Shown one piece after another: positions 866-11,471 of a DNA stretch of 32,260 nt. The stretch covers positions 1 through 32,260 of the forward strand of contig CASDZZ010000013.1 of the NCBI GenBank assembly GCA_949285875.1, given 5' to 3'. Source of the stretch: an uncultured bacterium (GTDB lineage Bacteria; Bacillota_I; Bacilli_A; RF39; UBA660). Position 1 is the first letter of the stretch, and every line of letters begins with the position of its first letter. Made by a program: the position numbers and the translations under genes. The notes beneath the pieces were generated by a model. The model searched no databases and was not told the origin of the DNA. It saw only the letters and a list, made by a program, of their open reading frames with translations.

Positions 866-918
866 TCAATAGTATATTGAAAATTAGCAAGAAATATACC
901 GGTAACGGAATAAATATA

Positions 919-947
919 TTGACAAATACTACCGTTTGCGGTATAAT
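919..947 (+). promoter_or_regulatory. Consensus sigma-A promoter of the fic-HEPN operon, with operator-like repeat in the spacer
   Basis: TTGACA (919-924), a 17-base spacer and TATAAT (942-947) form a perfect consensus promoter. The spacer and first bases of the -10 box carry the inverted repeat TACCG-TTTG-CGGTA, so a bound repressor would cover the promoter. A related block, ACCGGTAACGG, lies just upstream at 898-908. Transcription would begin near 954, which excludes the longer reading frame starting at 877 and sets the translation start at 967. Confidence 0.85.
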
Positions 948-966
948 TACAGCAGAGGTGAAAAGT

Positions 967-1893
967 ATGGAATTCATGACTACAAAAGAAGCTGTTGAAA
1001 AATGGAATATTAGCGAAAGAAGAATTAGAAAATTATTACAAGATGGTAGAATTGAGGGTGCTGTTAAAGTAGGTAATAGTTGGAATATACCAATCGATGC
1101 TGATAAACCTGTTGATAAAAGAATAATTAAACCAGATGATAATAAATTTATTATTGATTTAGATGATAACTATTTTGATGAAGTAGATAGTTTAAAAAAA
1201 GAATTAGATAGTAAAAGACCAATCTCGAAAGAAACTTTAAAATCTTTAAAAGAATCTATTAACTTAGAGTGGACTTATAATAGTAATGGAATTGAAGGTA
1301 ATACTTTAACATTAAGAGAGACACAAGTTGTTTTAGAAGGTATTACGGTAGGTGGAAAGTCTATTAAAGAGCATTTAGAAGCAATTAATCATGAAAAAGC
1401 TATTTTATATTTAGATGATTTAGTAAAAGATAAAAATCCAATAACTGAATGGAATATAAAAAATATTCACCAGTTAATTTTAAAAGATATAGATAATGAG
1501 AATGCTGGAAGATATAGAAAAGAAAATGTAACTATAAAAGGAGCAACTCATATTCCACCTGATTATTTAAAACTTCCTGAATTAATGGAAAAATTAATAC
1601 TTAATTACAATACTTGGGACGAATATCATCCAATAATTAAAGCGGCATTATTGCATGGAGAATTGGTTAAAATACATCCATTTGTTGATGGTAATGGAAG
1701 GACATCAAGATTACTTATGAATTTAGATTTAATGAATAGTGGTTATAATCCTGTAATTATAAAGAAAGAATCAAGATTAAAATATTATGAAGCATTGGAT
1801 AAAGCACATACCACTGGTAATTATACAGATTTTGTTAAATTAGTTACTGAGTTGGAAGTGGAAATGATCAAAAAATGTTTGGGGTTGTTATAA
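967..1893 (+). CDS. HTH-Fic family protein (class II Fic, probable AMP transferase)
   Basis: Fic proteins transfer AMP (or another phosphorylated moiety) from a nucleotide to target proteins. In this 308-residue protein, residues 4-45 form a short helix-turn-helix/excisionase-like DNA-binding segment. The Fic motif HPFVDGNGRTSR starts at His237. The inhibitory motif SNGIEGN at Ser106-Asn112 lies N-terminal to the Fic core, which defines class II Fic proteins; these are held inactive by the Glu (here Glu110). I chose the ATG at 967 because the consensus promoter ends at 947 and AGAGGTG precedes this start. Six bases separate its stop from the HEPN-like gene, so they are cotranscribed. The HTH suggests that it also regulates its own promoter, which carries palindromes. 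A Fic protein next to an RxxxxH HEPN protein suggests a toxin and modifying-antitoxin pair; that role is inference. Confidence 0.88.
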   Translation: MEFMTTKEAVEKWNISERRIRKLLQDGRIEGAVKVGNSWNIPIDADKPVDKRIIKPDDNKFIIDLDDNYFDEVDSLKKELDSKRPISKETLKSLKESINLEWTYNSNGIEGNTLTLRETQVVLEGITVGGKSIKEHLEAINHEKAILYLDDLVKDKNPITEWNIKNIHQLILKDIDNENAGRYRKENVTIKGATHIPPDYLKLPELMEKLILNYNTWDEYHPIIKAALLHGELVKIHPFVDGNGRTSRLLMNLDLMNSGYNPVIIKKESRLKYYEALDKAHTTGNYTDFVKLVTELEVEMIKKCLGLL

Positions 1894-1899
1894 ATAAAT

Positions 1900-3381
1900 A
1901 TGGAAAAAAATATCAATAAAAATTCTTTGCTAGCAAATATGCAATTTGTTGAAAATGATAAAAATAATTTTAATGATAGGTTGAATTTATGTTTAAAACT
2001 AGTAAGTATATTGAAAGAAATATATTTAAATGATAAAAACGAATATTTATTTATCTATTATAGATTAAATAGAAATTTAGGATCTTTATATTTTACACAA
2101 AATAATTATGAATTAAGCGAATTCTATTTTGAAACTTCAATAAAACTTTTTGAGGATAATAAAAATTTTGATTTAGAATCTCCTACTAATATTTGCATTA
2201 CAAAAGAGATGTTATCTCAAGTAAAGATGATGTTATTTTTAATATCGGGAAAAGAAGAAAAATTAAATAACGCAGATGAATTATTGAAATTTATTGAAAA
2301 TAATTATGATGATACTTGGAGCGACATTTTTAAACAAAATCTAGTAACAAGGAGAAATATTTATAATAATATAATTAATAGCAATTTAAAGACTGTAGTT
2401 TCAATGATAATTCCATATCATATAATTCTTAGTGATAAAAAAATATATTTTAAATATAAAGATATTGAGTGTTCAATTTTTTGCGAAACTGTAAAACTTT
2501 CAGAAAATAGTTTTATAGTTGGAAATAATGTATACAATGAAAAAGATATATATGGATTATTTAATAAAACAAAAATTACGATTGAAATTGGAAAATATGT
2601 TAATTTGAAAAATTGGATAAAAGTAAATAAAGAAATAGAAAGTGTCTGTGAACCTTTGACTATTGCAATTAACATTTATAATTATTTTTTGAAAAAGTAT
2701 ATTAGAGCAACAAAAAGATATTGGTTGAATGATGTTAACGAAAAAATGATAATAAATTATGAAATGAGTGCATTTGCGGGAGATTATGAGATTCAAAATA
2801 TTCCTTTTACTGCATCACTAAGTTTATCATCAAGTGGAGATAAAAACATTTCTCTTTCTGATGAAGATATTGAATGTCTAAAATATGAATTAATTAGTAA
2901 CAAAGATGAGGATTGGTTAAATTATTTGTTTGAAGCAAAGAAATATTATTTAGTTAAAGATTATAGGAATGTAATGATATTAGTTAATATTGCACTTGAA
3001 AATTTTTCTTTTCATTTTACAAAAAAGTATCTAATGAAATATAAAGACGAGCAATATGTAGATAATTTTTTATCAGGAAAAGTTAATTATGAAAATTTTT
3101 ATTTAAAAGATTATATTAAAGAGGAAGATTTTATTTCTGCAAAGCAAAAAAAATTGATTGCTGATAACCCACCAAGTATTTATATGGTTTATAAAGAATG
3201 TAATAAATATGAACTATTACCAATTAGTAGAACAAGATTAAATAAGATGATTAATTCTATAAAGTCTGAAAGAAATAATATTGTTCATGGAAAAACTATA
3301 AAAAAAGATTTAAGGTTTGTTGCTGAAGAAGCAATAGAAAATTTTGAAAAATTATTACAGATATTAGATAAAATTAATTAA
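1900..3381 (+). CDS. TPR-like/HEPN domain protein, putative RNase partner of Fic
   Basis: I do not recognise the whole 493-residue protein, but its ends are informative. Residues of about 30-110 are helical and resemble tetratricopeptide repeats ('NYELSEFYFETSIKLF'). The C-terminal third is helical and contains Arg458-Asn-Asn-Ile-Val-His463 (RxxxxH), the signature of HEPN ribonucleases, after an upstream helix of the type 'VMILVNIALENF' that is usual in HEPN folds. The middle, about 150-330, is beta-rich and unassigned. It starts 6 bp after fic with no good Shine-Dalgarno sequence (GGGG is about 15 bases upstream), suggesting translational coupling. The stop codon lies inside the left copy of the 30-bp repeat. 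Likely role (inference): an abortive-infection or toxin RNase controlled by Fic-mediated AMPylation, comparable in logic to HEPN-MNT systems. It could instead be a non-catalytic HEPN protein. Confidence 0.6.
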   Translation: MEKNINKNSLLANMQFVENDKNNFNDRLNLCLKLVSILKEIYLNDKNEYLFIYYRLNRNLGSLYFTQNNYELSEFYFETSIKLFEDNKNFDLESPTNICITKEMLSQVKMMLFLISGKEEKLNNADELLKFIENNYDDTWSDIFKQNLVTRRNIYNNIINSNLKTVVSMIIPYHIILSDKKIYFKYKDIECSIFCETVKLSENSFIVGNNVYNEKDIYGLFNKTKITIEIGKYVNLKNWIKVNKEIESVCEPLTIAINIYNYFLKKYIRATKRYWLNDVNEKMIINYEMSAFAGDYEIQNIPFTASLSLSSSGDKNISLSDEDIECLKYELISNKDEDWLNYLFEAKKYYLVKDYRNVMILVNIALENFSFHFTKKYLMKYKDEQYVDNFLSGKVNYENFYLKDYIKEEDFISAKQKKLIADNPPSIYMVYKECNKYELLPISRTRLNKMINSIKSERNNIVHGKTIKKDLRFVAEEAIENFEKLLQILDKIN

Positions 3382-3404
3382 CTACACTTTGACCATCGCG
3401 AGGT
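3375..3404 (+). repeat. 30-bp direct repeat, left copy (attP-like junction)
   Basis: It is identical over 30 bases to 8373-8402. It starts TAATTAACTACAC and ends CATCGCGAGGT. This copy continues with CATAATAGAAAG, giving the near-palindrome TGACC-ATCGCGA-GGTCA, as expected for a recombinase attachment site with both phage-type arms. It contains the stop codon of the HEPN gene and lies 32 bp before the WYL gene. I read it as the junction between two tandemly integrated elements or cassettes. Confidence 0.8.
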
Positions 3405-3436: not shown

Positions 3437-4030
3437 ATGGGGAAAATATCCAATGCAATTCAAATGTTAAATTATTTAAATACTGGTAATAAATATAGTG
3501 TAAAAGAATTATCTCAAAAATTAGGAATTACTGAGCGTATGGTTAGATATTATAAACAAGAATTAGAAGAAGCTGGTATTCCAATAGAAACTTTTATGGG
3601 ACCAAATGGTGGGTATTTTATTATAAATAAGCAAAATCAATATAATCAATTCAATAAGTATGATATTCAATTGTTAGAAAATATATATGAAATTTTGAAA
3701 GATAATGATTATATTTACATTGATAAATATAAAAAATTATTAGATAAAATCAAAACTATTAATGATATAAATGAAGAAAAAAGTAAGTATTTTTTTACTA
3801 ATAAAATAGAAGATAATTCAAAAGTATATTTTATTTTAAATGAAGCAATTGTTAATAATTCTAAAATAACCATTTTATATAAAAATCTAAATCAAGAATG
3901 GCAAGAGAGAAATATTCATCCAATACAAATTTTTAAATTTGATAATAGATTTTATGTTACAGCTTATTGTGAATTAAGAAATGATATTAGGCATTTTGAA
4001 TGTAATAGAATAAAAGTAAAAGAAAAATAA
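3437..4030 (+). CDS. Short HTH-WYL transcriptional regulator
   Basis: WYL proteins are ligand-sensing DNA-binding regulators, many of which repress phage-defence operons or respond to nucleic-acid ligands. Residues 1-60 form a DeoR/HTH_11 winged helix ('YSVKELSQKLGITERMVRYYKQEL', split here by the usual turn). Residues of about 115-195 are a WYL domain ending in the family's 'RHFECNRIK' strand. At 197 residues it lacks the C-terminal WCX extension of the usual family members of about 300 residues. A strong AAAGGAG precedes the ATG. It is the first gene inside the unit bounded by the 30-bp repeats and probably controls the two large enzymes downstream. The next gene has its own -10-like TATAAT at 4060-4065, a likely regulated promoter. 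Confidence 0.85.
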   Translation: MGKISNAIQMLNYLNTGNKYSVKELSQKLGITERMVRYYKQELEEAGIPIETFMGPNGGYFIINKQNQYNQFNKYDIQLLENIYEILKDNDYIYIDKYKKLLDKIKTINDINEEKSKYFFTNKIEDNSKVYFILNEAIVNNSKITILYKNLNQEWQERNIHPIQIFKFDNRFYVTAYCELRNDIRHFECNRIKVKEK

Positions 4031-4059
4031 TAAAGACACAATATTTCCTATATATATGT

Positions 4060-4065
4060 TATAAT
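4060..4065 (+). promoter_or_regulatory. Probable -10 box of the HAD-PRTase operon
   Basis: TATAAT lies 22 bp upstream of the ATG at 4088, with GAGGTGAT as ribosome binding site. The -35 region (ACACAA around 4036) is far from consensus, which fits a promoter that needs activation or is kept weak. The WYL regulator immediately upstream is the obvious candidate regulator. Confidence 0.45.
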
Positions 4066-4087
4066 ATGGAGTATACGAGGTGATATT

Positions 4088-6424
4088 ATGATTAATGAAA
4101 TATTATTAAAGAATTATCATGATGCTTTAGAACAAAAATATAACGCGATATGTTTTGATATAGATGGTACTTTAACTGAAGAAAAATCTACTAAATTAGA
4201 TAATCGAATTTTACCTTTGTTGGCTAACTTACTAAATAGACATATACCTGTTGTTTTTATTACAGGAAGAGGAAGAACTGGATTATATCGTTTAAAAGAA
4301 GAAATAATAAATAGTTTAAGAAAAGATTATGAAATTAGTAATTCTGATTTGTTAAAATTGTATGCACTTACGAATGATGGAGCTAGATTTTTTTTTACTA
4401 GTGTTGATAGTAAAGATATTTTTAATTGTAGTGAATATATAGCTTCCGACATAGATTTGAAAAAATTAAAAGAGTTAGATAAAAAAATATTAAAAAAATT
4501 TGAAGAAACAAACTTATTAAAATATTGTAAAGTTACTTATTCTAAGGATGAAAAATTAGATGTTATAATTAATATAAGAGTTACTACATTTACTAATGAT
4601 GAAGTTATAAATAAAAGAATATTAGGAATCATTGAGGAATTAATTGCCAATTTTGAATTTGAAAATATTAATATGACAATGGGTATATATAATGGGAATA
4701 AAGTTTTTCAAATAGGAACTACTATTAAGAGTCATGCCATACGTATAGCTGAGAGAATTATTGGCATACCGCAAGATTCAATGTTAAGGATTGGTGATTG
4801 TGGAGACAAGTTGGGTAATGATTATAGTATGTTAAATTGTTCTCAAGGATTTAGTGTTGATAGAACAAGTGGTGAAATTGATAAATGTTTTCCTATTATA
4901 GATGATAATAATAAAATATTAAAGGGTGTAGATGCAACTATATTTTTGTTAAGCAAAGCTAAATTATTACCAACAATTTGTTTAGAACACGCTACGGAAA
5001 CAAATTATACTAAAGCATATGCTAAGGTAGAAAGACAAATGAATTATGGTAAAAACAAAAGAATAATGGTTTTTAATGAATTTATAAATACCAAATTTCA
5101 GTTAGTAGATGGAATATATGGGTTATATGATAAATCAAGTGGCAGTATAAAGATTCCTATGTATGATTGGATTGGTATTGATGATGATAATCCTTTAAAA
5201 CAATTTTGGAGTAAACAATTTTTTTTAAAAATGAAATATGCAATGTGTGATAATGAGAATATTTTGTTAAGAGGTTCACAAGTATATTATTATTTTCTAT
5301 CTAATCGTTATCACGATGAAATAACTAGAAATGATATAACTTCAAAAGACATGGTGGATATATGGTTAAATAATAATAAAACATTTTTTATGGATGCTAT
5401 AGAAGCTATAAGTAAAACAAGCGATTTAAATAGCTTAAATAATTCAAAAATGATTTTAGGAATAATTGACAATATACGAAATGAACTACTAGTTTTATTA
5501 AATCAACAAGTAATTAGAAGTAGTAAAAATCAAACATTATATATTAATTTAGAAAAAATTGATAAAAACACATTGATGTACAAAATATATAAAACATTAT
5601 TAGATGTAATTAAATTGATGCAATATATTTCTTTTGATGATAGTTACTCAATTGATAGCAATGAATTGTATTGTGTATTAAATAATGCAATCATGGTTAC
5701 AAATGAATTTCAATCAATGTTTTCACAAGAAAATACAAAAGACAATTATTCAAAAGAATTTAGAGCATACAGAGAAATTGATAATTTTGCTGAAAATTTT
5801 GTTACTTGTTATTTAACATATAAAAATGATAATTATATATCTAATAAAGGAATATGCGGTTTATCGTATGGTGGAATTGAACTTCCAATTATAATAAAGT
5901 CTATAAATAATGCTATAAGCGATGTATCAATTTTAAAATTTAATAAAAATGCAAGTGGGTATTCCAAAAAACAATCAATTGATTTAAGATTTTTTGATAT
6001 ATCAAAATCAGGTGGAATTATGCAAGTTGGTATAGATAAAAATAAGAAGTATATTTTAGTTGATGATAATTTACTAACTGGAAAAACGATGCAACTTGCA
6101 TTGACTACTTTGTATGACATGGGAATAGAAGTTGACAAAATAGTAGTTGTTAGATATCCAGGTGTTAATAGAATTAGTCAAATGTTTATGAATAATCATG
6201 GAGCTATAGACTATAGACTTTTTTTCAATTTTATTCAAGGTTTATATTTTCCTAGTCCATATAGTTGGAGAGACCCTAATAGTTTAAATCCTTATGAAGA
6301 TTCTTTGGGTATTTTTGATTTAAATCGTAGGAAAATAATAGAATGTTTAGCAAAAAATGGTGATTATTATGAAAAAAGTGAAGTAGTATATGTAAAAAGG
6401 ATGGTAAAACGTGAAGATAATTAG
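4088..6424 (+). CDS. HAD phosphatase-phosphoribosyltransferase fusion protein
   Basis: This 778-residue protein has two enzyme modules. The N-terminal HAD module is of the Cof type. It has motif I DIDGT with nucleophile Asp24 and Asp26, motif II 'FITGRG', and motif IV GDCGDKLGND with Asp237 and Asp240; it should remove a phosphate from a small metabolite. The C-terminal module carries the PRPP-binding signature ILVDDNLLTGKT (Asp659, Asp660, Thr664-Gly-Lys-Thr667) of type I phosphoribosyltransferases, followed by about 100 residues of unknown type. The helical middle (about 300-560) is unassigned. Its 3' end overlaps the PfkB-SIS gene by 14 bp, so the two are translated together. All key residues are present, so both activities are plausible. 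The substrate is unknown; nucleobase, nucleotide or NAD-type chemistry is inference. I do not recognise this fusion as a named system. Confidence 0.8.
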   Translation: MINEILLKNYHDALEQKYNAICFDIDGTLTEEKSTKLDNRILPLLANLLNRHIPVVFITGRGRTGLYRLKEEIINSLRKDYEISNSDLLKLYALTNDGARFFFTSVDSKDIFNCSEYIASDIDLKKLKELDKKILKKFEETNLLKYCKVTYSKDEKLDVIINIRVTTFTNDEVINKRILGIIEELIANFEFENINMTMGIYNGNKVFQIGTTIKSHAIRIAERIIGIPQDSMLRIGDCGDKLGNDYSMLNCSQGFSVDRTSGEIDKCFPIIDDNNKILKGVDATIFLLSKAKLLPTICLEHATETNYTKAYAKVERQMNYGKNKRIMVFNEFINTKFQLVDGIYGLYDKSSGSIKIPMYDWIGIDDDNPLKQFWSKQFFLKMKYAMCDNENILLRGSQVYYYFLSNRYHDEITRNDITSKDMVDIWLNNNKTFFMDAIEAISKTSDLNSLNNSKMILGIIDNIRNELLVLLNQQVIRSSKNQTLYINLEKIDKNTLMYKIYKTLLDVIKLMQYISFDDSYSIDSNELYCVLNNAIMVTNEFQSMFSQENTKDNYSKEFRAYREIDNFAENFVTCYLTYKNDNYISNKGICGLSYGGIELPIIIKSINNAISDVSILKFNKNASGYSKKQSIDLRFFDISKSGGIMQVGIDKNKKYILVDDNLLTGKTMQLALTTLYDMGIEVDKIVVVRYPGVNRISQMFMNNHGAIDYRLFFNFIQGLYFPSPYSWRDPNSLNPYEDSLGIFDLNRRKIIECLAKNGDYYEKSEVVYVKRMVKREDN

Positions 6425-8375
6425 TATAGGTGATTTAGTAACCGATTTTTATTATAAAAATGAAAAGTTAATAGGTGTTAATGGCGGGATGACGTCGCAT
6501 AATATAATTGCTAATATTAGTCAAATGGGTATAAAAACTTCAGTATGTGGAGTTTGTGGTGATGATGCAGCAGGGAATATTGCAATAAAAAGTTTATCAG
6601 ATTTAGGGGTTGATACTAACTATGTGCAGGTTATAAAAAATTTGAAAACAAGATGTTTCCATGTTTCTTATTCAACAATTAATGATAAAATGGAGTTCAA
6701 ATCAAAAAAGAGATGCCCTATATGCAATCAAAAAAAGTGGTATGAAGAAAGTAATATTAATCCAAATGAAATAATCTCAGTTATAGATACAGATGATGTA
6801 CTAGTATTTGATAATCTAAATGAAAAAAATCAAATTATTATAAATAATACTAAAAATAGAAAAATGTTAGATTTAGGTCAATATTTTGAACTAGATAATT
6901 ATACTAATGAAGAAATAATAGAAAAATTAGGAAAAAAATTTGACATTATTAATTTAAATAAAAGAGTTGAAAAATATATTAAGTCGAGATTTTCTTTAAA
7001 AAAACTTGAAGAAATATATCAAATAATTGAACCTAAACTAATAATAGTAACTAGAGGTAAAAAAGGAGCGGACTTTGTATTTAATCGTATAGAAATAAAT
7101 AAAGAATTAAAAGTTATTTCTAACGAACTTGATTCAACCGGTGCAGGAGATGCTTTCTTTTCAGTTTTTATTAGTGAATATGTAAAGAATGATTTTCTGA
7201 TAGATGAAAAATTTATTAATGAAACTTTTCAAAAAGCTACAAAATTAACAAGTAAAGTTGTAAAAAAAATTGGTGCTAGAGGGCATATACAATCATTGTA
7301 TAAAATTAAAAGGATAAAAAATTTTTGTTCATGTGAAAATTTTGAAGTTTCAGTAAGAAAAAAAATAAAAAGATGTAACATAAATATCAATAATTTAGAA
7401 AAAAGGATAATAAATGCTATCAATAGTAATGCTTATGAAAAATTAAAAACTATTAATTTTTCTAATAGAAAGAATTACCTTTTTGTAGGTACAGGTGGTT
7501 CTTTCGCTGGATCAAAATTTTCTGCAAAAATTATTAACAATTTATATGGTTCGAATACAATAACTTTATTACCTAGAAATGTATATTATAGAAATAATGA
7601 TAATATTGATAATGTATTTTTATTTACATATTCTGGCACTACAAATGATTTGATTGTAGGAACATCTTTATTAGATAATGATAAAAAGTTTATTATCACA
7701 AAAGGTGAAATTCAAAAGGTAGTAACAAAGACTAATATTTCTAAAAAAAATATAATATCATATCGTACTAATACCAACAAGGGGAAAGAAAGAGGTTTCT
7801 TATCTTTTGAAGGTGCATTAGCTCCAGCTAGTTTGTTTTTAAAATTGTATTTTGAAAAAAATTTAGATTATGATTTAGAAACTTTTATTAAAAATAGTAT
7901 CAATTACTGGAAATATTATTTTGAAGAGTATTTTAAAAATAACAAAAAAGGTTTAAAAGATTTTTTTGAAAAAGGGAGTTGCTTTAATATTTTTACTGGT
8001 GATTTTTCGGAATCAGCAGCAACAGACTTAGAAAGTAAAATAATTGAATCAGGAATTTTTAATTGCTTAATTCATGAAAAGAAAAATTTTTCTCATGGAA
8101 GATTTATTAATTATGAACATTTAAGTGATAAAAAAAATATATACTTCAAATCAAAAAGTACAAGCACATATGAGAAAAGGCTATTAGATTATTTACAACA
8201 TGATTATAATATAATAATTGAAAGTAGATATGATGGAATATTATGTGAGTATGATTTATTAGTTGCTTCTCAATATTTTGTTTATTTTATATCAAATTTT
8301 CTTGATATAGATATGTCTAAACCTTCATACAGTGAAGATGCTATGAAAATATATTTTTACAAAGGAGACCTATAA
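6411..8375 (+). CDS. PfkB-family kinase fused to SIS domain
   Basis: This 654-residue fusion has a ribokinase/PfkB-type module at about residues 1-310. The phosphate and anion-hole motif is DSTGAGDAF (Asp241-Phe249, catalytic Asp247), and an N-terminal 'VNGGMTSHN' segment sits where the sugar-binding GGxxxN normally lies. A CPIC pair (Cys102, Cys105) interrupts the lid region, which is unusual and may be a metal site. Residues of about 345-560 form a SIS (sugar isomerase) domain with GTGGS (Gly360-Ser364) and a phosphosugar-binding YSGTTND around Ser408. The start is GTG at 6411, overlapping the upstream gene by 14 bp. The stop TAA is the first part of the right 30-bp repeat. Together with the HAD-PRTase it could phosphorylate, transfer and dephosphorylate a ribosyl or sugar-nucleotide compound; the substrate is not evident. 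Confidence 0.82.
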   Translation: MKIISIGDLVTDFYYKNEKLIGVNGGMTSHNIIANISQMGIKTSVCGVCGDDAAGNIAIKSLSDLGVDTNYVQVIKNLKTRCFHVSYSTINDKMEFKSKKRCPICNQKKWYEESNINPNEIISVIDTDDVLVFDNLNEKNQIIINNTKNRKMLDLGQYFELDNYTNEEIIEKLGKKFDIINLNKRVEKYIKSRFSLKKLEEIYQIIEPKLIIVTRGKKGADFVFNRIEINKELKVISNELDSTGAGDAFFSVFISEYVKNDFLIDEKFINETFQKATKLTSKVVKKIGARGHIQSLYKIKRIKNFCSCENFEVSVRKKIKRCNININNLEKRIINAINSNAYEKLKTINFSNRKNYLFVGTGGSFAGSKFSAKIINNLYGSNTITLLPRNVYYRNNDNIDNVFLFTYSGTTNDLIVGTSLLDNDKKFIITKGEIQKVVTKTNISKKNIISYRTNTNKGKERGFLSFEGALAPASLFLKLYFEKNLDYDLETFIKNSINYWKYYFEEYFKNNKKGLKDFFEKGSCFNIFTGDFSESAATDLESKIIESGIFNCLIHEKKNFSHGRFINYEHLSDKKNIYFKSKSTSTYEKRLLDYLQHDYNIIIESRYDGILCEYDLLVASQYFVYFISNFLDIDMSKPSYSEDAMKIYFYKGDL

Positions 8376-8402
8376 TTAACTACACTTTGACCATCGCGAG
8401 GT
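8373..8402 (+). repeat. 30-bp direct repeat, right copy (attR-like, joined to amidase gene)
   Basis: It is identical to 3375-3404. Here the sequence after the shared GGT is GGCGATGGTGCTGAAG, the codons for Gly-Asp-Gly-Ala-Glu of a LysM amidase, so this is the junction between integrated DNA and chromosome. CCATCGC and GCGATGG form an inverted repeat around GAGGTG at the junction. The likely crossover lies in the shared GGT (inference). Confidence 0.85.
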
Positions 8403-9536
8403 GGCGATGGTGCTGAAGTAGTTTATGCTCTTAGAAATAATGATACTTTAGCTAAATCTATATTAAGTAACATAGAAGAAACGGGTCAAAACATTAGAAA
8501 ATGGTATCAAAGAAAATTGCCTTCCAATTCTAATAAAGATTATTATTATATAATAAGGGATACTAGCCCAGCAGAATCAGTTTTAATAGAATATGCCTTT
8601 TTAGATTCTAATAAAGATGATAAAAAACAAATAAGAAATGATTGGGAGAAGTGGGCTGAGGCGGTTGTTAAAGCGGTTGCAGAGTATAAAGGTTATAACT
8701 ACGTAAAACCAGGACAAAATACGGTTAATGGAATATATAAGGTTCAAAAGGGTGATAGTCTATGGTCCATTGCTAAAAAGTTTAACGTTGGAATAAATGA
8801 AATAAAAAGTGCTAATAACTTAACTTCAAATTTAATAAGTGTAGGTCAAGAATTAGTTATTCCAGGATTTGCACCTCCAGAGCAAACTAATATTACTTAT
8901 GTAGTTCAAAAAGGAGATAGTTTGTGGTCAATTGCAAATGCTAATAACACTACGGTAGATGAAATAGTTAATCTAAATGATTTGGTAAATAATACTATTT
9001 ACGTAGGGCAAATACTTCAGATACCTAATTCTGGTAATTCAAGTAATGTTCCTGATTCAGAAACTATTTATATAGTAGAAAAAGGAGATACTCTTTATTC
9101 TATAGCACAAAAATACGATACCACTATAGATGCTATAATAAGAAAAAATGGGCTTACAAATGATGATTTAGTGGTAGGTCAAAGTCTTATAATACCAGCT
9201 GATGTAGAAAGTACTGGTAAGGATGAAGATCAAGATTTAAATAAAAATTTGCATGTGGTTCAAAAAGGTGAAAGTTTGTTTTCAATAGCTAGTAAGTATA
9301 ATGTACCTATTAGTAAGTTAAGAGAGGTTAATAAATTAATGACTGATTTATTAACTATTGGCCAAGTTTTAATAATACCTGATTCTAGTGATTCTTCTAA
9401 TTTATATGTAGTTCAAAAAGGAGATAGTTTGTGGTCTATATCAAATAAATTTGGTGTAAGTATTAATAGTATAAGAGTGGTAAATAATTTATCTTCTGAT
9501 ATTTTAACAGTTGGGCAAACATTAATAATTCCATAA
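8400..9536 (+). pseudogene. LysM-containing N-acetylmuramoyl-L-alanine amidase, 5' half removed by insertion
   Basis: The frame opens at the repeat junction with Gly-Gly-Asp-Gly-Ala-Glu-Val-Val-Tyr-Ala-Leu-Arg. This is the second half of an Amidase_3 domain, which cleaves the MurNAc-L-alanine bond of peptidoglycan. The catalytic Glu segment is kept ('LIEYAFLDS'). Five LysM peptidoglycan-binding repeats follow at roughly 8730, 8895, 9065, 9255 and 9405, each with the pattern QKGDSLWSIA...GQ.LIIP, and the protein ends at the last one. The intact paralogue on the opposite strand (10272-11471) shows that about 110 N-terminal residues, including the zinc-binding region, are missing. The TTG at 8517 is not a true start. 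The missing half should lie at the other end of the integrated DNA, left of the window. A terminator follows at 9543. Confidence 0.85.
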
Positions 9537-10043: not shown

Positions 10044-10221
10044 CGGTTATATCGTTATTATTTTTGTTTTGTTCTTCTCCTTTTTTATTATCATCATTTA
10101 AAGCCATAAAAATAGATATAATTAGAAAAATAAATCCTAAAATAATAAAAATTGCATCACGTAATATTCTATATTTTAATTTTTCAGCTTTAGCTTTTTC
10201 AACTTGTTTATCAAATGTCAT
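10033..10221 (-). CDS. Small single-pass membrane protein, unknown function
   Basis: This 62-residue protein has a charged N-terminus (about residues 1-20), one hydrophobic span (about 23-41, 'AIFIILGFIFLIISIFMAL') and an Asn/Lys/Asp-rich hydrophilic tail. GAGGTGA lies at the right distance from the ATG at 10221. A TATGATATAAAT stretch upstream could be its -10 region, and it has its own terminator, so it is probably a real, separately transcribed gene. I recognise no family. Its place between cell-wall hydrolase genes suggests an envelope role only by proximity. Confidence 0.6.
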   Translation of the reverse strand: MTFDKQVEKAKAEKLKYRILRDAIFIILGFIFLIISIFMALNDDNKKGEEQNKNNNDITEKN

Positions 10222-10271
10222 GATTTCACCTCATCATTTATATCATAACACAAATAACAAAAAAGTTATAA

Positions 10272-11471
10272 TTATCTTTCAATTAATAATTTTTGTCCAA
10301 TGGCTAAGGTATCATTTTTTAAATTATTTATTTTTTTTATGCTATCTACCGTAGTGTTATAATTTTTAGCAATATTCCACAGGCTATCTCCTTTTTTTAC
10401 TACGTAGGTTGTATAATTAGTAGAACTTGGTATGATAAGTTTTTGACCAATAGAAAGGGTATTACTTTTTAAGTTATTAGTTTCTTTTATTTTATCAACG
10501 GTTGTATTATAACGATTAGCTATTGCCCACAAACTATCTCCTTTTTCTACTATATAAATTATTTGGTTGGTACTTACTTTATTAGGGATAATGAGTTTTT
10601 GCCCAATAGAAAGTAGGGTAGAAGTTAAATTATTAGCACTTTTTAATTCGTTAACGCTTATATTATATTTATTTGCGATAGACCATAGGCTATCTCCTTT
10701 TTTAACAATGTAAATACTTTCATTGGATTGGTTATCATCTTCATCATTACTATTTTTAGGAATCTTTAAAATTTGACCTATTTGTAAAACGTTATTTTTT
10801 AAATTATTAGCTTTTTTTAAATCATCAACACTAACACCAAGCCTACTTGCTATGGACCATAGGCTATCTCCTTTTTTTACAACGTAATATTCGGAATTAT
10901 TAGATGGAATATAGGAAACGCCTGCGTATGTTGCAAGAGCTATTACAACTGCTTCTGCAAGCTTTTCGTAATTATTTTTAATAAGATTAACATCATCTTT
11001 ATTAGAATCAACATAGCCATAGTAAACAGCCAGTGTTTGATTATTAGGAGTATTTCTAATTAGGTAATCTGAATCAAGTGAAGTATCACTAGCATCCCTT
11101 AATTGGTAATACTTTTCAACGTTTTGACCTTCATTTTCTAAAGCTGATGCAATTAATGAAGCTAGCCTATCGTTATTTCTTAATGCATACATAATTTCAG
11201 CTCCATCGCCACCACCATTAATTAGCCGGTTTGAAATAACTATTATATTATTACCAGTTCCATATTTATTTTTTATTATATTAACCCTTTCCTCTTCAGT
11301 TAGAGTTACATCTCCATCCCTTACTAAAAAATTATCTATCCCTAAATCAGTTAACCTTTTACTTAAGTATTTTGAAATTAATAAAGTGTAGTCTTTTTCA
11401 TTTATTCCGTTAGCAGAAACACCATTTTGGGTTCCACCAGCTCTAGCATCTATCGCTACTTTGTAAGCCAT
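10272..11471 (-). CDS. LysM protein with degenerate Amidase_3 domain (probable pseudoenzyme)
   Basis: This 399-residue protein has an N-terminal Amidase_3 fold (about 1-190) and four C-terminal LysM repeats (GDSLWSIA...IGQ.L.IP pattern). The key residues are changed. The usual zinc-binding AGHGG reads Asp-Ala-Arg-Ala-Gly-Gly. The second zinc His, normally in SNHIN, is Arg ('ISNRLING'). The usual catalytic Glu in 'VEYGFLDS' is Tyr ('VYYGYVDS'). The Glu in 'NEKDY' is kept. It is therefore probably not an active amidase but may bind peptidoglycan or regulate a partner. I chose the ATG at 11471 because AGGAGG lies just upstream and the protein then starts Met-Ala-Tyr-Lys-Val-Ala-Ile-Asp, the normal beginning of the domain. 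It is the closest paralogue of the interrupted amidase at 8400-9536. Confidence 0.85.
   Translation of the reverse strand: MAYKVAIDARAGGTQNGVSANGINEKDYTLLISKYLSKRLTDLGIDNFLVRDGDVTLTEEERVNIIKNKYGTGNNIIVISNRLINGGGDGAEIMYALRNNDRLASLIASALENEGQNVEKYYQLRDASDTSLDSDYLIRNTPNNQTLAVYYGYVDSNKDDVNLIKNNYEKLAEAVVIALATYAGVSYIPSNNSEYYVVKKGDSLWSIASRLGVSVDDLKKANNLKNNVLQIGQILKIPKNSNDEDDNQSNESIYIVKKGDSLWSIANKYNISVNELKSANNLTSTLLSIGQKLIIPNKVSTNQIIYIVEKGDSLWAIANRYNTTVDKIKETNNLKSNTLSIGQKLIIPSSTNYTTYVVKKGDSLWNIAKNYNTTVDSIKKINNLKNDTLAIGQKLLIER

Follow-up and report, generated by a model that had tools for sequence, protein, structure and literature searches.

A WYL-headed operon of two fused phosphosugar- or nucleotide-type enzymes on a putative recombinase-less cassette in uncultured gut Bacilli

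The subject of this analysis is a pair of overlapping genes at positions 4088–6424 and 6411–8375 of the forward strand in a stretch of 32,260 nucleotides, here called the window (positions 1 to 32,260 of contig CASDZZ010000013.1, assembly GCA_949285875.1), from an uncultured bacterium of the lineage Bacillota_I; Bacilli_A; RF39; UBA660. They encode HAD-PRT, in which a HAD-type phosphatase is fused to a phosphoribosyltransferase (PRT), and PfkB-SIS, in which a PfkB-family kinase is fused to a double-SIS domain. At the level of sequence, the anatomy of the operon to which both belong, a conserved putative operator-promoter, the modular gain and loss of operon parts and the cassette boundaries in the window could be established. 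For substrate and role we infer, tentatively and somewhat short of an even chance, a WYL-regulated operon acting on intracellular phosphosugars or nucleotides, which would be carried as a non-autonomous cassette mobilized in trans by a serine recombinase and would have an accessory role in stress or anti-phage responses.

HAD-PRT (778 amino acids, ATG start) is composed of a HAD-IIB phosphatase (residues 1–294), a helical middle domain (295–555) and the PRT (555–778), and PfkB-SIS (654 amino acids, GTG start) of the kinase (1–315) and the double-SIS domain (319–654). The reading frames overlap by 14 nt, and together with the domain searches they agree with an earlier note on this DNA, which had described four catalytic modules in two proteins. 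The profile searches proposed in that note bore it out to differing degrees. PfkB was matched strongly (Pfam, E 5.2e-18), with fructoselysine 6-kinase and ribose-1-phosphate kinases among the matches, HAD-IIB fell slightly short of its cut-off (NCBIfam, E 6.7e-10), and PRT was likewise below its own (Pfam, E 1.7e-4; 15 of 39 family members match). SIS was not detected by Pfam in the window protein taken singly, but 20 of the 44 PfkB-SIS family members matched it (best E 3.7e-4), and a family profile including stand-alone SIS relatives reached the double-SIS proteins 2aml, 3eua, GlmS and 1j5x of the PDB at E 0.007–0.03. Translation and alignments located D24-I-D26-G-T, T59, K214 and GDCGDxxGND (236–245) in the HAD part, the phosphoribosyl pyrophosphate (PRPP) loop DDNLLTGKT (659–667) in the PRT part, GAGD (244–247) in PfkB, and GTGGS (360–364) and YSGTT (407–411) in SIS. 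These motifs, rightly called intact in the note, are invariant or almost so in 39–44 relatives. Residue 63 of HAD-PRT, in contrast, is glutamate in 38 of 38 relatives and arginine in the window copy.

Confident AlphaFold (AF2) models were obtained for HAD-PRT (predicted local distance difference test, pLDDT, 88; predicted template modelling score, pTM, 0.87) and PfkB-SIS (pLDDT 89). In Foldseek the PfkB half grouped with sugar and nucleoside kinases (E 2e-16), and the HAD half matched ISN1 nucleotidases specific for inosine monophosphate (best, E 1.5e-8), trehalose-6-phosphate phosphatases and Cof-type HADs. The best fold match, the ISN1 5'-nucleotidase, is only 11–16% identical and differs in that the window HAD is fused to helical and PRT domains. 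As the matches listed (50 per model) cover neither the SIS nor the PRT half, profiles and motifs in the sequence are the basis for these two folds. The ratio of nonsynonymous to synonymous substitution rates (dN/dS) of HAD-PRT against its relatives is about 0.2; the values obtained, 0.1–0.25, indicate purifying selection. A side observation concerns PfkB-SIS, where near-invariant cysteines in CPxC and CxC arrangement (residues 102, 105, 306 and 308; window 6411–7355) lie in the PfkB lid and past the domain; they are missing from some stand-alone PfkB relatives and may form a zinc site.

While the earlier note took the fusions for a two-protein system, they proved to be part of an operon of four genes or more. 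Its first gene, at 3437–4030 of the forward strand, encodes a WYL regulator of 197 amino acids (HTH_11 plus WYL; Pfam WYL 1.1e-14, PADLOC WYL 2e-26) and is found in every complete related Bacilli locus save a few reduced ones. The operon is kept across more than 40 loci, and in the complete Bacilli loci other than the window the order is WYL, a small NT5C-like HAD (157–183 amino acids, best Pfam E 4.6e-7), HAD-PRT, optional genes, and PfkB-SIS. Immediately 3' of the WYL gene 37 of 41 loci contain GACnnAATAyTTC followed about 10 bp on by TGnTATAAT, against an expectation of 0.04 from the density elsewhere in the same loci. In the window this operator-promoter spans 4035–4065 of the forward strand, with GACACAATATTTC at 4035–4047 and the extended -10 element TGTTATAAT at 4057–4065. 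The enzyme genes have a promoter of their own. The left end of the cassette is only about 35 bp before the start of the WYL gene, which therefore probably depends on transcription reading through from outside. With a WYL regulator and a conserved putative site at its promoter, the operon is predicted to be WYL-controlled. WYL domains are known to respond to nucleotides and to regulate defence loci (PMC10693628, PMC9122601); BrxR/CapW-type loci likewise have the WYL regulator first and a conserved DNA site at the promoter, but here the WYL protein is short, the site lies 3' of its gene before the enzymes, and the enzymes are unrelated to CBASS or BREX.

The window copy is, as assembled, a deletion derivative of the four-gene or larger operon, judged by comparison with a sister locus. 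Only 57 bp separate its WYL gene from HAD-PRT, and the small HAD gene of the relatives (about 490 bp) is missing. Alignment of window 3900–4200 with 10200–11080 of the 90%-identical sister L034 indicates that the gene was lost cleanly by way of a duplicated 9-bp repeat, GATATTATG, which persists as a scar at 4082–4090 of the forward strand (compared segment in L034, 10384–10863) and leaves promoter, ribosome site and start codon in place. An assembly error may be the source of the missing gene. Decay of the window HAD-PRT was considered and rejected: its N-terminal third has a higher dN and also a higher dS, a pattern more like that of a selected but divergent allele, or of a mosaic.

Further variation is modular. 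The optional genes are CAT plus esterase (L053, L057, L060, L095), an esterase alone, or a DHH phosphoesterase plus an APH kinase (L076, L083, L089, L096), and the pairs share one insertion place between HAD-PRT and PfkB-SIS. Each full pair would combine an enzyme adding and one removing the same kind of group, which suggests masking and unmasking. Searches with PfkB-SIS also found stand-alone SIS genes immediately 3' of the WYL gene (L152–L157), WYL-SIS-PfkB trios with SIS and PfkB as separate genes (L146, L147, L149), and WYL-(esterase)-PfkB-SIS loci without HADs (L141–L144). The GACnnAATAyTTC core is present in most minimal WYL-SIS versions too; WYL, site and SIS therefore form a common unit. 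In a PfkB-SIS tree made by a quick method and with many open forks, at least 16 changes of module content were counted, at least six of them in the HAD arm, and the optional inserts too are gained and lost frequently. The HAD/PRT arm is an add-on, repeatedly lost, to a core of WYL and SIS with or without PfkB. Several loci have a HAD-PRT broken at differing points or degraded beside an intact PfkB-SIS (L056, L089, L090, L091, L095, L052/L099), and in L048/L089 two HAD-PRT parts overlap by 4 bp, which suggests a true gene fission. In L152 (7888–9455) a Ham1/inosine triphosphatase (ITPase) gene comes after a minimal WYL-SIS unit. A WYL/HAD-PRT cluster which emerged from blastp grouping proved spurious, being caused by N-masked letters in L080.

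The operon family is patchy and nearly restricted to one family of gut Bacilli, where it occupies varied places. Of 288 genomes sampled from the order, 22 have HAD-PRT matches, remnants included, as do two of the eight sampled from the genus; the SIS subfamily was found in two of 314 genomes of the phylum, both belonging to the same family. A scan of 84,980 GTDB species yielded 47 loci, nearly all in metagenome-assembled genomes (MAGs) of gut Bacilli (Ca. Faecisoma, Caccenecus, Onthousia, Scybalousia). Outside the lineage there is one true HAD-PRT relative, in a Clostridia MAG (L098, about 33% identity), the remaining matches being short alignments to generic HAD or PRT genes. The plasmid, phage and IMG/VR collections searched contained no HAD-PRT relative. 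For PfkB-SIS the sole match in the plasmid set, one to PfkB, came from Proteus (22%), and IMG/VR had none, and Foldseek against viral proteins returned one generic HAD match and nothing further. A fixed housekeeping operon, which would have spoken against the earlier note, is rejected by the patchy occurrence and the varied neighbours.

In the window the operon lies between two exact 30-bp direct repeats and forms with them a unit of 5.0 kb. The left repeat, at 3375–3404 of the forward strand, contains the recombinase-type site ACACTTTGACCATCGCGAGGT and marks the left boundary of the cassette; the right one, at 8373–8402 of the same strand, is the junction (attR) with an interrupted N-acetylmuramoyl-alanine amidase/LysM gene, cut by the insertion at codon 87 and continuing with its 3' part at 8400–9536 (forward strand). 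With up to three mismatches allowed, the 23-bp core of the repeat is found nowhere else in the genome, and the amidase-LysM gene is uninterrupted in L185, L186, L189, L190 and L191. At 17–505 of the forward strand the contig start cuts off a large serine recombinase, of which a C-terminal fragment remains; by blastp it clusters with recombinases of 501–562 amino acids from relatives, the family being assigned by inspection with a weak DUF4368 match as library support. Intact recombinases of 527 amino acids, 97–98% alike, are present in L053, L217, L218 and L220. Among the 288 genomes of the order, 11 contain the site ACACnnTnACCATCGCGAGG, which never turned up in a reversed control. In the loci read it adjoins an interrupted amidase gene or marks a cassette boundary, often on one element with recombinase or Fic genes. 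IMG/VR has no occurrence of the cassette site. A repeat-flanked unit that lacks its own recombinase thus stands next to a recombinase-bearing element with the same target, as expected of a non-autonomous element. The regulator and the mobile unit which the note had named are both borne out. Upon excision the circle junction is predicted to read ...CCATCGCGA-GGT-CATAATAG....

Stacking of such units is suggested by L053, where three site copies (6807, 13632, 15967) enclose two cassettes, the second of which (434 plus 293 amino acids) recurs singly between two sites in L212. Units in the amidase-LysM serine-recombinase elements (window, L053, L212, L217, L218, L220) each end in ACACnnTnACCATCGCGAGGT, and with their exchangeable, defence-type cargo they suggest an array of cassettes like that of integrons. 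A resemblance is also seen to pseudo-SCC elements in composite staphylococcal cassette chromosome (SCC) islands (PMC2900268), likewise recombinase-less units with integration-site repeats in tandem with a recombinase-bearing element, but here the site lies in the amidase gene (GGTGGCGATGG), the recombinase is another one and the units are small 5-kb single operons. Cassette-type repeats are absent from most other loci of the family. L086 and L087 have terminator-like direct repeats of 30–39 bp at both operon ends, at the same positions as the window repeats, and these may represent another type of cassette junction.

The preferred reading assigns the following steps. The WYL protein would keep the promoter 3' of its gene silent and release it on the arrival of a nucleotide-like or stress ligand. 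The PfkB domain would then act as a kinase on a sugar moiety, and the resulting phosphorylated sugar or aminosugar would be isomerized or cleaved by the double-SIS domain, as FraB acts after FraD. The PRT domain would use PRPP to phosphoribosylate a base or amine, the HAD domains would remove phosphates, and the optional pairs would mask and unmask the product. Such a pathway would most likely make or destroy a nucleoside-like or aminosugar metabolite, and the window copy, having lost the NT5C-like phosphatase, would run a shortened version. As the conserved operon genes include no transporter, the substrate is probably internal. Several findings weigh against this reading. Characterized families lie far from both PRT and SIS, so that the chemistry could differ. 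The WYL-PfkB-SIS core can do without the HAD/PRT arm, and split or degraded copies occur (L056, L089, L090, L091, L095, L099). Mobilization in trans is read from the repeats, and most copies elsewhere stand singly beside housekeeping genes, outside defence islands, in a survey that took in the closest two genes on either flank.

A strictly anti-phage system, in which infection would trigger the WYL regulator and the operon would deplete or poison the nucleotide pool, overlaps with the preferred reading, which leaves a stress or phage role open; by itself it was considered possible but unlikely. WYL regulators flank defence systems (PMC9122601). Sister elements at the serine-recombinase site in the amidase gene have mostly defence-like cargo, among it SIR2/ThsA-like, Fic, defence-type helicase, Bro-N and AAA/DUF4143 proteins. 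Directly 5' of the cassette, window 877–3381 encodes a SoFic/PDC-S04-like Fic protein as well as a TPR protein whose C-terminal part weakly matches HEPN. On the other hand the neighbours elsewhere are mostly ordinary, there is neither a phage-triggered effector domain nor a nuclease, and PADLOC-DB 2.0.0 has no meaningful model for either fusion enzyme, only the WYL regulator matching, to associated models. The defence setting claimed earlier thus holds for this integration site and mostly not elsewhere; a defence role is plausible on circumstantial support.

Pfam, NCBIfam and PADLOC gave no match to a named system, and neither a named system nor a known pathway with the same two fusions was found in the literature, in keeping with the note. 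Among the closest known systems are FraD-FraB and FrlD-FrlB, in which a PfkB-family kinase is paired with a double-SIS deglycase; in FraD/FraB the kinase acts before the SIS enzyme, with a phosphorylated intermediate that can be toxic (PMC4941530). A catabolic operon with a fused kinase and deglycase of this kind, consuming Amadori products or nucleoside sugars of the gut, in which the HAD/PRT arm would salvage the released base, was judged rather unlikely. It would account for the PfkB-then-SIS order, the kinases matched, the gut hosts and the reach of the SIS profile to the fructosamine-6-phosphate deglycase 3eua, though this match (E 0.0072) is on a par with one to a different SIS protein and close to that of GlmS. 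The window operon differs from FraD-FraB and FrlD-FrlB in the fusion into one protein, in the remote sequence (E about 0.007), in the SIS motif HEKxxFSHGRF in place of the HGP type, and in the joining to HAD/PRT and WYL. Against the catabolic reading stands a regulator of WYL rather than sugar type, and the pairs of CAT with esterase and of APH with DHH are hard to reconcile with it, as is the very patchy, mobile distribution. The Bacillus frl operon moreover includes uptake genes (PMC12632257), but no permease, ABC transporter or other transporter is found among the Pfam-annotated conserved genes here. Metabolite repair, in which the enzymes would rid a stressed cell of phosphosugars and nucleotides that are damaged or non-canonical, agrees with the NT5C-like and HAD-IIB phosphatases, the WYL-linked control, the low dN/dS and the Ham1/ITPase gene 3' of the WYL-SIS unit of L152, but is improbable; repair enzymes are usually near-universal and vertically inherited, and this operon is rare and shifts between sites.

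A Ter-linked biosynthetic module for a nucleoside-like metabolite was reportedly proposed by Anantharaman et al. in 2012. Common to both would be an accessory operon, linked to stress or defence, that encodes PRT and HAD enzymes; the window operon differs by adding PfkB and SIS, and Ter proteins, Ter PRTase and ATP-grasp were not seen among the Pfam-annotated conserved genes, a direct profile comparison not having been made. It is conceivable, if doubtful, that the operon represents a new stress or anti-phage pathway, in which a WYL-switched operon would build a phosphoribosylated or aminosugar antimetabolite with interchangeable masking and unmasking pairs, and a serine recombinase would stack 5-kb recombinase-less cassettes integron-like at one site.

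The deletion in the window is a caution against taking single MAG loci for complete systems. The cassette repeats suggest that defence-type cargo may be stacked in an integron-like manner by a serine recombinase, and the two unnamed fusions, with their regulatory site and exchangeable pairs, offer an experimental handle on a small-molecule pathway of uncultured gut Bacilli.

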